This document shows, piece by piece, positions 6,585 through 35,618 of a stretch of DNA of 35,618 nucleotides; position 1 is the first letter of the stretch; each line of letters begins with the position of its first letter. Origin of the DNA: an uncultured Chloroflexota bacterium (lineage in GTDB: Bacteria > Chloroflexota > Chloroflexia > Chloroflexales > Chloroflexaceae); NCBI GenBank assembly GCA_937120965.1, contig CAKZKA010000251.1, positions 1 to 35,618 of the forward strand, read 5' to 3'. Below the pieces are notes generated by a model. That model did no database searches. It saw only the letters and a list, made by a program, of their open reading frames with translations, and was not told the DNA's origin. A program made the translations under genes and the position numbers.

Positions 6585-6720
6585 CGCCGACAGGCGTGAT
6601 GGCGTTGGGATGCGCTGGTTGGTCCTCACCCCTGGCCCCGCTCCAGCTTCGAGACCAGAGCCGTGCGCGGGCGTTCCAATGCGCTTCAAGCCACGCTGGC
6701 TCGGATGTTCTGTGCGCCCT
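6585..6720. repeat. Diverged copy of repeat C
   Basis: This matches the 107-bp unit at 1479-1692 in the same orientation, including GGCGTGATGGCGTTGGGATG and GCGTTCCAATGCG. It has about 25 extra bases in the middle (around 6635-6660) and continues into GCTCGGATGTTCTGTGCGCC as the second 1586-1692 unit does. A MITE-like element is inserted directly after it. Confidence 0.8.
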
Positions 6721-6722
6721 TA

Positions 6723-6824
6723 TACCATTTTGGATTTTAGATTTTGGATTGTGGATTGCCACGCTGGGCAGCACAACGCCTGAAATCGCTTCAGGCAATG
6801 CGGCATCATCAACGGTAATTGGTA
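6723..6824 (+). mobile_element. 102-bp MITE-like element, copy 1 (target duplication TTA)
   Basis: The element begins TACCATTTTGG and ends with the imperfect inverse CGGTAATTGGTA. It contains the internal hairpin GCCTGAAATCGCTTCAGGC. It is flanked by TTA at 6720-6722 and TTA at 6825-6827. It has no coding capacity, so mobility would need a transposase elsewhere in the genome. Copies at 12723, 25717 and 30247 are near-identical. Confidence 0.85.
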
Positions 6825-6860
6825 TTAGAGATTACGTCACACCCACCCACCACGAGACTG

Positions 6861-6889: not shown

Positions 6890-7116
6890 TCCTCGCGTTC
6901 ACGCACATGCGAAACTCGCCCGATCCACGCCGAACGATAGGCCCCTTGCGTGTAGGCGGGCCGTGGTTTTGCTGCGTAGCCTTTCGGGGAACTATGGGGA
7001 GAGATCAGGTTTCCCCACCGGCCCTCCACGCGGCTGCGCCGCACAACGCAGGATCAACAAGGGTTTGTTCGCACGAGGGCTACGCCCTCCCAAGCCCTCC
7101 CACCAGGGAGGGGGAT

Positions 7117-7203
7117 GGGGAACCCCGGTTTCCCCAGTTCCCAACCGCTGCTGGGCGCGGCTGGCGCCCCACCGGCAGGGGGATGGGGAAACCCGGTTTC
7201 CCC
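7117..7203. repeat. Pair of GGGGAAACCCGGTTTCCCC-type palindromes flanking a conserved core
   Basis: Palindromes at 7117-7135 and 7185-7203 flank a core reading CCAACCGCTGCTGGGCGCGG followed by CTGGCGCC. The same palindrome-core-palindrome layout recurs at 22699-22785, and the core in inverse orientation forms part of the 94-bp units at the left edge. This suggests a composite unit rather than isolated palindromes. Confidence 0.8.
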
Positions 7204-7429
7204 GTATATTCACCTCAGCCCTTCGTGAGAGGCACAGGACGGCATAGTTACGGGCTATTTCGATAGTTTCCAGATGCTAAGCCAGGCGTAAACTCGCGCC
7301 AGGGATTGGGCATGGATAGCAGCCATAGTCATACAGGTCGGCGGCGCAGCGGAGCGCCCACAATCATTGCCAGCTTCACCGGTCCCATATGCGCCGGCTG
7401 CTACGCCTGAGCGCTTCGTGGTCACTGTC

Positions 7430-7506: not shown

Positions 7507-7594
7507 TACCAATTACTGTTGATGATGCCGCATTGCTCGAAGCGGTTTCAGGCGTTGTGCTGCCCAGCGTGGCAATCCAAAATCCAAAATGTTA
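7507..7594 (-). mobile_element. Decayed, internally deleted MITE-like copy 5
   Basis: This inverted copy of the 102-bp element keeps the TACCAATTAC end and the GTTGTGCTGCCCAGCGTGGC core. It lacks 14 bp of the A/T-rich end, and its internal hairpin no longer pairs (GCTCGAAGCGGTTTCAGGC). The flanking triplets are TTA and TAA, which do not match, as expected for an old or damaged insertion. Confidence 0.75.
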
Positions 7595-12536: not shown

Positions 12537-12627
12537 CGTAAGTGTTCACACTTCTCCTGCGGGCATCTTGCCCGCATCCAGGCCCTTGCGGGCGGGACGC
12601 TCGCGCTACCGGGGTGACGCCTTACCC
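12537..12627 (+). repeat. Repeat D, copy 2
   Basis: It matches the reverse complement of 7597-7690, with shared GTGTTCACACTTCTCC and GCGGGCGGGACGC segments. It is nested within the interrupted repeat C copy. Confidence 0.7.
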
Positions 12628-12722
12628 CAACTGTGAACACGTACCGCATCAGGACGCCATAACGTCCGTTGGCGCTCGTACGTTCTGTTCGCCCCTGAAC
12701 CCGCTCAGGGGCCGGGGGGTGA

Positions 12723-12824
12723 TACCATTTTGGATTTTAGATTTTGGATTGTGGATTGCCACGCTGGGCAGCACAACGCCTGAAATCGCTTCAGGCAATG
12801 CGGCATCATCAACGGTAATTGGTA
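12723..12824 (+). mobile_element. 102-bp MITE-like element, copy 2 (target duplication TGA)
   Basis: It appears identical to copy 1 across its length, with TGA at 12720-12722 and TGA at 12825-12827. The duplication differs from the TTA at copies 1 and 4, showing that the outer triplet belongs to the target and not to the element. Confidence 0.88.
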
Positions 12825-22668: not shown

Positions 22669-22698
22669 GCTCAAATCTCCCCACAGGGAGGGGGGAAT

Positions 22699-22785
22699 GG
22701 GGAAACCCGGTTTCCCCATTCCCCAACCGCTGGTGGGAGCGGCTGGCGCCACTCCAGGCAGGGGCCTGGGGAAACCCGGGTGCCC
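22699..22785. repeat. Palindrome pair of the GGGGAAACCCGGTTTCCCC family
   Basis: A perfect palindrome at 22699-22717 and a degenerate one at 22768-22785 flank CCAACCGCTGGTGGGAGCGG and CTGGCGCC, the same core as at 7117-7203. It lies in the gap between the 3' ends of the convergent WecA-like and M20 genes. Confidence 0.8.
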
Positions 22786-22921
22786 TATGTTCACGTTAGA
22801 CGCCCATGCGCGGGGCGCACAACGCCGCGATGAATAAGGGGTATCTCAGGGATGGCCGCCCCCTCCCTGGCCCTCCCCCGCTGGGGGAGGGAACCGGGCT
22901 TCTCCCCGCAGGGAGGGGCCT

Positions 22922-22940
22922 GGGGAAACCCGGGTTCCCC
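22922..22940. repeat. Palindromic repeat, GGGGAAACCCGGGTTCCCC
   Basis: A member of the dispersed family just after the 3' end of the minus-strand M20 gene. It is followed by the family E-type tail GTATGTCCACCTCAG. Confidence 0.75.
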
Positions 22941-22958
22941 GTATGTCCACCTCAGCCC

Positions 22959-24420: not shown

Positions 24421-24465
24421 ACAGTAGTTTTGTGTGAGAAGATGATCACGTTTGAGGAGGCCGGT

Positions 24466-25716
24466 ATGGGGCGGCGGGTCGTGGTAACCGGGATGGGCGC
24501 CGTTAGCCCCCTCGGGCTGAGCGTGCCTGAGCTGTGGCAGGGTATCGTCGAGGCCCGCAGCGGCGTCGGGCCGATCACCCTGTTCGACGCCTCGGGCTTC
24601 GAGACGCGCTTTGCAGCCGAGGTGAAGGGCTTCGACCCCACCCACTACATGGATCGCAAGGAGGCCCGCCGCACCGACCGCTTTGTGCAGCTTGCCGTTG
24701 CCGCTGCGCTCGAGGCCCTGCGCACTTCCGAGTTGCAGATCACGGCCGAGAATCGCGACGAGGTTGGAGTGTTCATTGCCAGCGGCATCGGCGGCATCGC
24801 GACGCTGAGCGAGCAGTTCGATGTGTTGCGCGCCCGCGGGCCAGGACGGATCAGCCCGTTCCTGATCCCGGCGATGATCACTAACCTGGCCGCCGGGCAG
24901 GTCTCAATCACCACCGGGGCGCGAGGACCGAGCTACTGTATCACCTCGGCCTGCGCCTCCTCGGCCCACGCCATCGGCGAGGCCGCCGAGACCATCCGCC
25001 GCGGCTGGGCCAGGGCAATCATCGCCGGAGGCAGCGAGGCCAGCATTACCCCGATCGGGGTGGCCGGCTTCAACGCGATGCGCGCCCTCTCGACGGCCAA
25101 CCACCAGCCTGCCACAGCATCGCGCCCCTTCGACGCCGACCGCGACGGCTTTGTGATGGGCGAGGGCGCTGCTGTGCTGATCCTGGAGGATCTCGAGTAC
25201 GCCCGGGCGCGCGGCGCCCGCGTTTTGGCCGAGATCGCCGGCTACGCCGCCACGTCGGACGCCTACCACATCAGTAACCTCGCCGAAGATGGCGAGGGCA
25301 TTGTGCGCGCCATCAGCCTCGCCCTCCAGCGCTCCAGACTGCAACCTGCCGACATTGATTATATCAACGCCCACGCTACCGGCACTCCTGCCGGCGATCC
25401 GGTTGAAAGCGCGGCGATCCGGCAGGTCTTTGGCCCCCGCGGCAAGGCGCCACCGGTAAGCTCAAGCAAGTCGCAGTTCGGCCATCTCCTGGGCGCCGCC
25501 GGGGCGATCGAGGCTGTGGTCAGTGTGCTGGCGATGCAGCACGGCCTGCTGCCGCCGACTATCAACCTCCAGCGACCCGATCCCGCCTGCGATCTCGACT
25601 ATGTGCCTGGCCAGCCACGTCCCGCCGCCCTGCGCGCGGTGATGAGCAATTCCTTCGGCTTTGGTGGGCACAATGTCTGTCTGGTCTTCCGGCGGCTTGA
25701 GGACCCCGTGAGGTAA
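24466..25716 (+). CDS. fabF: 3-oxoacyl-[acyl-carrier-protein] synthase II
   Basis: The 416-residue thiolase-fold enzyme has the Cys-His-His triad of KAS II: Cys in ITSACASSAH (about residue 167), His in NAHATGTPAGDP and His in KSQFGHLLGAAG. It elongates acyl-ACP chains in fatty acid synthesis. The ATG at 24466 is preceded by GAGGAGG at 5 nt, so the in-frame start at 24430 is rejected. No other fab gene is adjacent. The stop codon TAA (25714-25716) is also the left target duplication of a MITE-like element, so insertion here did not change the protein. Confidence 0.97.
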   Translation: MGRRVVVTGMGAVSPLGLSVPELWQGIVEARSGVGPITLFDASGFETRFAAEVKGFDPTHYMDRKEARRTDRFVQLAVAAALEALRTSELQITAENRDEVGVFIASGIGGIATLSEQFDVLRARGPGRISPFLIPAMITNLAAGQVSITTGARGPSYCITSACASSAHAIGEAAETIRRGWARAIIAGGSEASITPIGVAGFNAMRALSTANHQPATASRPFDADRDGFVMGEGAAVLILEDLEYARARGARVLAEIAGYAATSDAYHISNLAEDGEGIVRAISLALQRSRLQPADIDYINAHATGTPAGDPVESAAIRQVFGPRGKAPPVSSSKSQFGHLLGAAGAIEAVVSVLAMQHGLLPPTINLQRPDPACDLDYVPGQPRPAALRAVMSNSFGFGGHNVCLVFRRLEDPVR

Positions 25717-25818
25717 TACCAATTACCGTTGATGATGCCGCATTGCCTGAAGCGATTTCAGGCGTTGTGCTGCCCAGCGTGGCAATCCACAATCCAAAAT
25801 CTAAAATCCAAAATGGTA
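25717..25818 (-). mobile_element. 102-bp MITE-like element, copy 3 (target duplication TAA, the fabF stop)
   Basis: This inverted copy is nearly identical to copies 1, 2 and 4. TAA flanks it at 25714-25716 and 25819-25821; the left TAA is the fabF stop codon in frame. Its internal GCCTGAAGCGATTTCAGGC hairpin now sits about 30 bp after fabF and could affect the transcript end. Confidence 0.9.
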
Positions 25819-25822
25819 TAAT
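25814..25822 (+). promoter_or_regulatory. Extended -10 created at the MITE/target junction, facing rnc
   Basis: The last bases of the element (TGGTA), the duplicated TAA and the following T give TGGTATAAT on the plus strand, identical to the polA and 32807 motifs. It lies about 290 bp before rnc. The -35 position within the element is A-rich without a match to TTGACA. Activity is untested. Confidence 0.45.
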
Positions 25823-25865
25823 ACCAGTTGGAATTGAACAAGCCGCACACGCACTCCGCCAGCAT

Positions 25866-28839: not shown

Positions 28840-28960
28840 GGCCCGGCGGGGCCGTCTTGGAGGCCCGGCGGGGCCGTCTCGGAGGCCCGGCGGGGCCGTC
28901 TCGGAGGCCCGGCGGGGCCGTCTCGCAAGCCCGGCGGGCGGTTGCGGCGGCCGTCTCGCA
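28840..28960. repeat. 22-bp tandem array, four near-perfect units and degenerate ones
   Basis: Units of GGCCCGGCGGGGCCGTCTCG plus GA start at 28840, 28862, 28884 and 28906. A longer degenerate unit follows at 28928-28960, then a partial. Each unit junction can form a GACGGCCC/GGGCCGTC hairpin. The array fills the space between the divergent phoU and GT4 genes. The period is not a multiple of three, so it is not a coding repeat. Confidence 0.9.
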
Positions 28961-30191: not shown

Positions 30192-30246
30192 ACGTGCCTC
30201 ACGCGGGCGCGACGATCACGAAGATGGGGGTGGGAGGGTGGCGTTA

Positions 30247-30348
30247 TACCATTTTGGATTTTAGATTTTGGATTGTGGATTGCCACGCTGGGCAGCACAA
30301 CGCCTGAAATCGCTTCAGGCAATGCGGCATCATCAACGGTAATTGGTA
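30247..30348 (+). mobile_element. 102-bp MITE-like element, copy 4 (target duplication TTA)
   Basis: A full-length copy lies between the convergent GT4 and SH3 genes, flanked by TTA at 30244-30246 and 30349-30351. It appears identical to copies 1 and 2. Confidence 0.88.
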
Positions 30349-30423
30349 TTAGCCCGGGTCCGGGCTGAGAAGGCGCGGGGACCCCCGGCTTCCCACCGAC
30401 GCAGACACGATGGCGCACCATCG

Positions 30424-31966: not shown

Positions 31967-32079
31967 TACTATTCGGTTTCAGAGGTGACCACGCCCGTCC
32001 CCCCGGGACTGTCGCAGAGTCCGCCCCATGGCGGGTTGGTGCGGCAGCGCAGCCGCATGGGCGTCTGAGATGAAAATAC
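31967..32079. other. Gene-free start of the GNAT-phosphatase gap
   Basis: This stretch between the divergent GNAT and phosphatase genes contains a GCGGCAGCGCAGCCGCA palindrome near 32041-32056 and no credible gene. The rest of the gap to 32319 is made of the repeats listed next. Confidence 0.45.
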
Positions 32080-32167
32080 GGGGAAACCCGGTTTCCCCAT
32101 CCCCCTGCCTGTGGGGGCGGCAAGCCCTCCCCACCGGTGTGAACATGTGGGGAAACCCGGTTTCCCC
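32080..32167. repeat. Two GGGGAAACCCGGTTTCCCC palindromes in direct array
   Basis: Perfect 19-bp palindromes at 32080-32098 and 32149-32167 are each followed by ATCCCCCTGCCTGTGGG and AGCCCTCCCC segments, giving a repeat period of 69 bp. A second block at 32168-32234 continues into a TGGGAGGGC/GCCCTCCCA hairpin at 32214-32234. Confidence 0.88.
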
Positions 32168-32266
32168 ATCCCCCTGCCTGTGGGAGCAGCAAGCCCTCCC
32201 CGAGGGGAGGGTTTGGGAGGGCGCAGCCCTCCCAGGAACAAACACGTTCATCTTGTCATCGTGCGC

Positions 32267-35382: not shown

Positions 35383-35618
35383 TGCATGCCTGAACATAGG
35401 GGGAAACCCGGTTTCCCCATATCCCCGCCCACGAGGTGACAAGCCCTCCCCACCGGGAGGGGTTGGGAGGGCTCCCAGGAACAAATTGGTTGCGTTCTGG
35501 CGTTGCGCGGTTGCGCCGCAAGGGCGTCTGCTCCCCGGTCGCGACATCGTCGCGCGGGCCCCCGAGGGCTACCGCGGGTCATCCGTGGCGGGCTACGGAT
35601 ACCCCGACACAATCTTCT
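35383..35618. repeat. Repeat-filled right edge with GGGGAAACCCGGTTTCCCC
   Basis: A perfect 19-bp palindrome lies at 35400-35418, followed by CATATCCCCGCCCACGAGG, AAGCCCTCCCC and GGGAGGG segments like those at 32080-32234. The final 110 bases contain GGTTGCGCCGCAAGGGCG and other GC-rich inverted repeats, without a gene that can be supported before the window ends. Confidence 0.75.

Follow-up and report, generated by a model that had tools for sequence, protein, structure and literature searches.

A TNA-duplicating MITE of a Chloroflexaceae genome and its probable link to a branch of transposases related to IS630

Described systems and the elements of the window

Three-base TNA (TWA) target duplications and a preference for palindromic targets characterize the IS1031 subgroup of the IS5 family and the PIF/Harbinger elements. 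RAYT/REPIN systems, in contrast, display a conserved perfect hairpin and no target duplication. Insertion at TA together with duplication of TA counts as a hallmark of the Tc1/mariner/IS630 superfamily, and work on ISY100 describes the IS630 family as inserting into TA and duplicating it (PMC2170065).

The 102-bp repeat considered here has the 3-bp TNA duplication in common with IS1031/IS5 and PIF/Harbinger elements, but its TACCA...TGGTA ends match those of IS630-family elements. The transposases of these matching autonomous elements resemble those of the IS630 family (Tc1/mariner superfamily, e.g. ISY100) in their NF033545 and PF13358 matches; unlike IS630/ISY100, with their TA target and TA duplication, this TACCA group uses TNA, has a DD31E motif and in many cases carries two overlapping ORFs. 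Nezha and other MITEs of cyanobacteria are also short and non-coding, with inverted repeats, and occur in Nostocales, a likeness that is by description only.

The window, i.e. the whole stretch of 35,618 nucleotides that was analysed, lies on contig C251 of the source genome (G000; 5.18 Mb in 307 contigs). The initial annotation had listed four full 102-bp copies in it (6723, 12723, 25717 inverted, 30247) with matching triplets TTA, TGA, TAA and TTA, which is exact for the window:

6720-6722, unstranded: target duplication TTA, left of MITE copy 1
6723-6824, plus strand: MITE copy 1, 102 bp; left end TACCATTT and heptads, right end AATTGGTA
6728-6758, plus strand: heptad array TTTTGGA TTTTAGA TTTTGGA TTGTGGA TTG of MITE copy 1
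6778-6796, plus strand: internal hairpin GCCTGAA-ATCGC-TTCAGGC of MITE copy 1
6825-6827, unstranded: target duplication TTA, right of MITE copy 1
7507-7594, minus strand: decayed MITE copy, 88 bp, two heptads fewer; left end mutated to TAACA; unmatched flanks TTA/TAA
12720-12722, unstranded: target duplication TGA, left of MITE copy 2
12723-12824, plus strand: MITE copy 2, 102 bp; homologous empty sites elsewhere in the genome
12825-12827, unstranded: target duplication TGA, right of MITE copy 2
25714-25716, unstranded: target duplication TAA, left of MITE copy 3, doubling as stop codon of the beta-ketoacyl-synthase ORF 24430-25716
25717-25818, minus strand: MITE copy 3, 102 bp, inverted
25819-25821, unstranded: target duplication TAA, right of MITE copy 3, common to the neighbouring end at 25822
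25822-25847, plus strand: inverted-repeat end TACCAGTTGGAATTGAACAAGCCGCA, a second and distinct one from the same superfamily, back to back with MITE copy 3 with only TAA between them; agrees with the family-wide end pattern at 19 of its 20 specified bases
30244-30246, unstranded: target duplication TTA, left of MITE copy 4
30247-30348, plus strand: MITE copy 4, 102 bp
30349-30351, unstranded: target duplication TTA, right of MITE copy 4

No partner was found for the inverted-repeat end at 25822-25847. The window also contains repeats of other kinds: perfect tandem duplications of 94 bp and 107 bp (1-188 and 1479-1692), a 22-bp tandem array, GGCCCGGCGGGGCCGTCTCGGA, where a glycosyltransferase-like ORF begins (28840-28949), and a separate GC-rich family with GGGGAAACCCGGTTTCCCC palindromes (55-263, 7099-7221, 22681-22958, 32071-32201 and 35391-35452), some copies of which are about 250 bp long elsewhere in the genome.

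Anatomy, target sites and spread of the MITE

At the left end of the element, TACCATTT precedes a series of 7-bp units with the pattern GATTNNN, while the right end is the inverted repeat TACCAATTACCGTTGATGATGCCGCATTG. Its length classes (88, 95, 102, 109, 116 and 123 bp) indicate that whole 7-bp units have been gained or lost among the genome copies. Two sister elements, B and C, have different interiors and the 102-bp size, ends and TNA duplications in common with the A type. The same 7-bp motif is known as the Class I heptad TDNGATT of the P6b stem in the Nostoc trnL intron, where it forms part of an intron stem-loop and where its evolutionary history has been described as unresolved (PMC4476775); it is conceivable that this intron heptad originated from a MITE. 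In Viridilinea the array has grown to roughly 9-11 heptad units at two loci (L149, L197) and is microsatellite-like. Elements of 315-634 bp in genus g5 (L300-L302, L305, L311) have the same inverted repeats and TNA duplications with other repeats as cargo; no transposase ORF was found in them.

Along with the list of copies had come the proposal that the genome be searched for the repeat and its flanking triplets listed. The 15-mer core TGGGCAGCACAACGC, allowing at most one mismatch, occurs 184 times in the 5.18 Mb, against 0 occurrences of a reversed control pattern. Among the A-type copies with both ends readable within the genome stretches read (n=67), the two flanking triplets agree in 61, and TNA accounts for 59 of these, with all four bases at N (TAA 25, TTA 19, TCA 8, TGA 7); as a control, the next triplet outward is identical in only 2 of the 67. 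TNA duplications also flank the sister-type copies (8/8). Empty sites, in which the flanks joined minus one triplet are found uninterrupted elsewhere in the genome, exist for the window copy 12723-12824 at three loci (L045, L037, L056), and for another copy (L016) they are provided by more than ten copies of a different repeat, one of them in the window at 12566-12640. From these uninterrupted homologous sites it follows that the duplication comprises three bases and that the TA within TACCA/TGGTA is element sequence; they likewise bear out the earlier reading of the triplet as target sequence. Nested insertions occur at L007, L010 and L019, an A-type copy at L010 splitting a sister element at TTA, and back-to-back elements with one common TNA are seen at L007, L019 and window 25819-25821. 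Given its copies, the matching TNA triplets and the uninterrupted homologous sites, the repeat is a MITE, as had been supposed: it is short and non-coding, with many near-identical copies. The earlier claim of recent activity also agrees with the genome, in which 26 of 72 copies are identical over the full 102 bp.

Single insertions, too, favor targets that resemble the element's own junction, GG-T-n-TNA-n-A-CC. Over four bases on each side, the mean numbers of matches are 1.57 and 1.60 against a background of 1.06 and 1.03 (SD 0.13), an excess of roughly four standard deviations on either side. As a separate observation, every TNA reads as a stop codon on one of the two strands (TAA, TGA or complements), and 15 of 59 insertions coincide exactly with the stop codon of an open frame that spans 150 codons or more, compared with 5.1% of control TNA sites (p 2e-7); restriction to non-coding-like sites leaves an enrichment at p 0.04. 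A TNA duplication at a stop codon preserves the stop, the case in the window being MITE copy 3 at the TAA of the beta-ketoacyl-synthase ORF.

The heptad-type left end is present in 14 of the 158 genomes of the class, all within one family. Among the matches listed in a GTDB-wide scan, this end type occurs in Chloroflexota, with Viridilinea, Chloroploca and Oscillochloris as named relatives, and in many cyanobacteria, including Nostoc, Calothrix, Tolypothrix, Microcoleus and others. Most of the complete copies from cyanobacteria measure 98-102 bp and have TNA on both sides, and Calothrix brevissima NIES-22 alone has 127 copies of the matching end TACCAATTTGAAAAAAGAATGCGACA (at most 3 mismatches). 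IMG/VR and phage collections yielded no TIR or MITE match.

IS630-family elements with matching ends

Two plasmids of Nostoc have the cyanobacterial form of the MITE end, TACCAATTTGAAAAAAGAATGCGACA(A/G)ATG, located after TAA and directly upstream of an IS630-type HTH ORF, which corresponds to the HTH half of an IS630 transposase. Eight IS630-family elements of 1129-1151 bp on cyanobacterial plasmids have TACCA...TGGTA ends, with inverted repeats of about 30 bp that are 21-27/30 identical, and all eight are flanked by identical TNA triplets (TAA 3, TCA 2, TTA 2, TGA 1). Cyanobacterial relatives annotated as IS630-like include ISAcma28, and an element with that annotation (L364) has the same kind of ends and TTA on both sides. 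Two DD31E elements of Chroococcidiopsis (L358, L363) start with the TACCATTT left end as well, but a search for identical TNA triplets around them found none. Closer to the source genome, its own bacterial family within the Chloroflexota contains two elements (L350 and L337; 1.17 kb) with the Chloroflexota-type TACCA...TGGTA ends and unequal flanking triplets, and a further one (L338) with TGA on both sides. At the right end, MITE B shares 25 of 30 positions with L350 and MITE A 20 of 30, L350 being the nearest IS end. Agreement between the left end of the MITE and the IS end is confined to the first ~8 bp, after which heptads follow; we infer that the heptad array took the place of most of the left inverted repeat, and the array may carry putative binding sites.

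The proteins of the matching elements score above the cut-off of NF033545 (IS630) and match PF13358. In all TACCA-group transposases where it can be read the D-E spacing is 31 (DD31E), whereas the remaining full-length IS630s from the bacterial family of the source genome have 36 or 43 where readable, with one fragment at 30. In a tree, a branch with 96/90 support separates the DD31E TACCA group from these other IS630s, two of which (L339, L354) show TATAGC-type ends and TA flanks. In many copies of the TNA group an A-rich slippery site connects the two overlapping ORFs. In place of the 2-bp TA duplication that is the IS630 hallmark, both the MITEs and the eight cyanobacterial ISs duplicate TNA, and for this reason we speak of a TNA-duplicating branch related to IS630 and not of a standard member of that family. 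Literature searches with the end sequences, IS630 with TNA and DD31E (ISfinder being outside their scope) returned no description of a TNA-duplicating IS630 group.

The driver in the source genome and competing explanations

As a whole explanation we favor, with a probability of roughly 0.8, a MITE that is moved in trans by a transposase of the TNA-duplicating IS630 branch. This Tc1/mariner-like enzyme would bind the MITE ends in trans; the non-autonomous element would then be excised by a cut-and-paste reaction and reinserted at TNA with a 3-bp staggered cut, with insertion favoring sites that resemble its own end junction. Such a transposase presumably moved the copies in the source genome, where no intact one was detected: the DD31E-group profile (A1) found no match in G000 nor in the MITE-bearing relatives G024, G034 and G040; within the same genus it picked up just one broken gene, in G026. 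As identical copies point to recent movement, the driver in the source genome has probably either disappeared recently or escaped assembly, hidden, for example, by its division into 307 contigs.

An explanation that we regard as unlikely invokes a stand-alone domesticated transposase gene, unflanked by ends in the manner of RAYT-REP and perhaps derived from IS630, as the mover of the repeats. It would account for the abundance of ends without any bracketed transposase, which applies to ~1 Mb of G000, to the ends listed in NIES-22 and to ~170 ends in 13 relatives, and for the near-constant size of 98-102 bp and architecture in two phyla. In Calothrix NIES-22 there was no inverted end pair 0.6-3 kb apart among 100 of the 127 TIR copies, and an all-against-all comparison of repeats in the ~1 Mb sample of G000 revealed no multi-copy IS. 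However, IS630-family elements with the same ends exist, and a single DDE_3 gene was detected in G000 (L344), a truncated DD43E-type relative whose final Glu is replaced (NPVA). A search of ~1 Mb of G000 for a larger element bounded by these ends and by identical TNA triplets gave ten candidate pairs, none of them convincing.

The initial annotation had predicted that an IS1031-subgroup transposase of the IS5 family elsewhere in the genome drives the MITE, and had suggested a search for an IS5-family element with TACCA-matching ends. TNA duplications of 3 bp are indeed recorded for IS1031-type elements, but no IS5-type transposase bracketed by TACCA-type ends was found in the genome and we consider this driver very improbable. 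In profile searches PF13359 (DDE_Tnp_4) gave 0 matches in G000, and PF13340 (DUF4096) gave 0 in G000, G040 and G034, all of which contain MITEs, as against 20 in G007 and 10 in G009, both of them genomes without the heptad-type end. PF01609 has three matches in G000, none bracketed by element ends: one gene (L032) has no TACCA-type end nearby, another (L033) belongs, judged from its own short inverted ends, to an IS inside a sister MITE, and the third (L034) is a degraded remnant adjoining a complete MITE. The IS at L033 (1187-2656, with transposase ORF 1354-2610), which we take to resemble IS701, has inverted ends CTCTACTTTGTCAGTTC and is inserted at TTAT in a B-type MITE.

Still more remote is single-strand mobility of the RAYT/REPIN type, with the hairpin as the mobile signal. 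The repeat is short, reaches a high copy number and contains a palindrome, but precise 3-bp duplications and inverted repeats at its termini are signs of a double-strand reaction with staggered cuts, and the empty sites contradict such mobility. Moreover, the perfect GCCTGAA/TTCAGGC hairpin, earlier ascribed to all full copies, holds for those of the window but genome-wide for 44 of 72 sampled copies; in the remaining 28 of 72 it is imperfect, older copies having forms such as GCCTAAA/TTTAAGC. The view of the repeat as a fixed functional sequence (a terminator or a structural RNA) whose TNA flanks arose by chance can practically be dismissed, despite the hairpin and the location of about a quarter of the copies at open-frame ends, in view of the empty sites, the variable N, the nested insertions and a fold energy that is not unusual for the A type (z -0.86).

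Returning to the TNA-duplicating branch related to IS630, we lean towards a broader proposition, in which a branch of IS630/Tc1-mariner elements with DD31E and TACCA ends changed its stagger from 2 bp (TA) to 3 bp (TNA), and its MITEs, with a 7-bp array replacing most of one inverted repeat, occur in Cyanobacteria and Chloroflexota and persist in genomes without a detectable autonomous partner. A natural 3-bp TNA branch would make the change in target choice and stagger of a DDE transposase testable against TA-using relatives. Such a branch also provides a driver for a class of MITEs that is abundant in cyanobacteria and phototrophic Chloroflexota, and offers an example of a MITE lineage that holds one size and architecture across two phyla.
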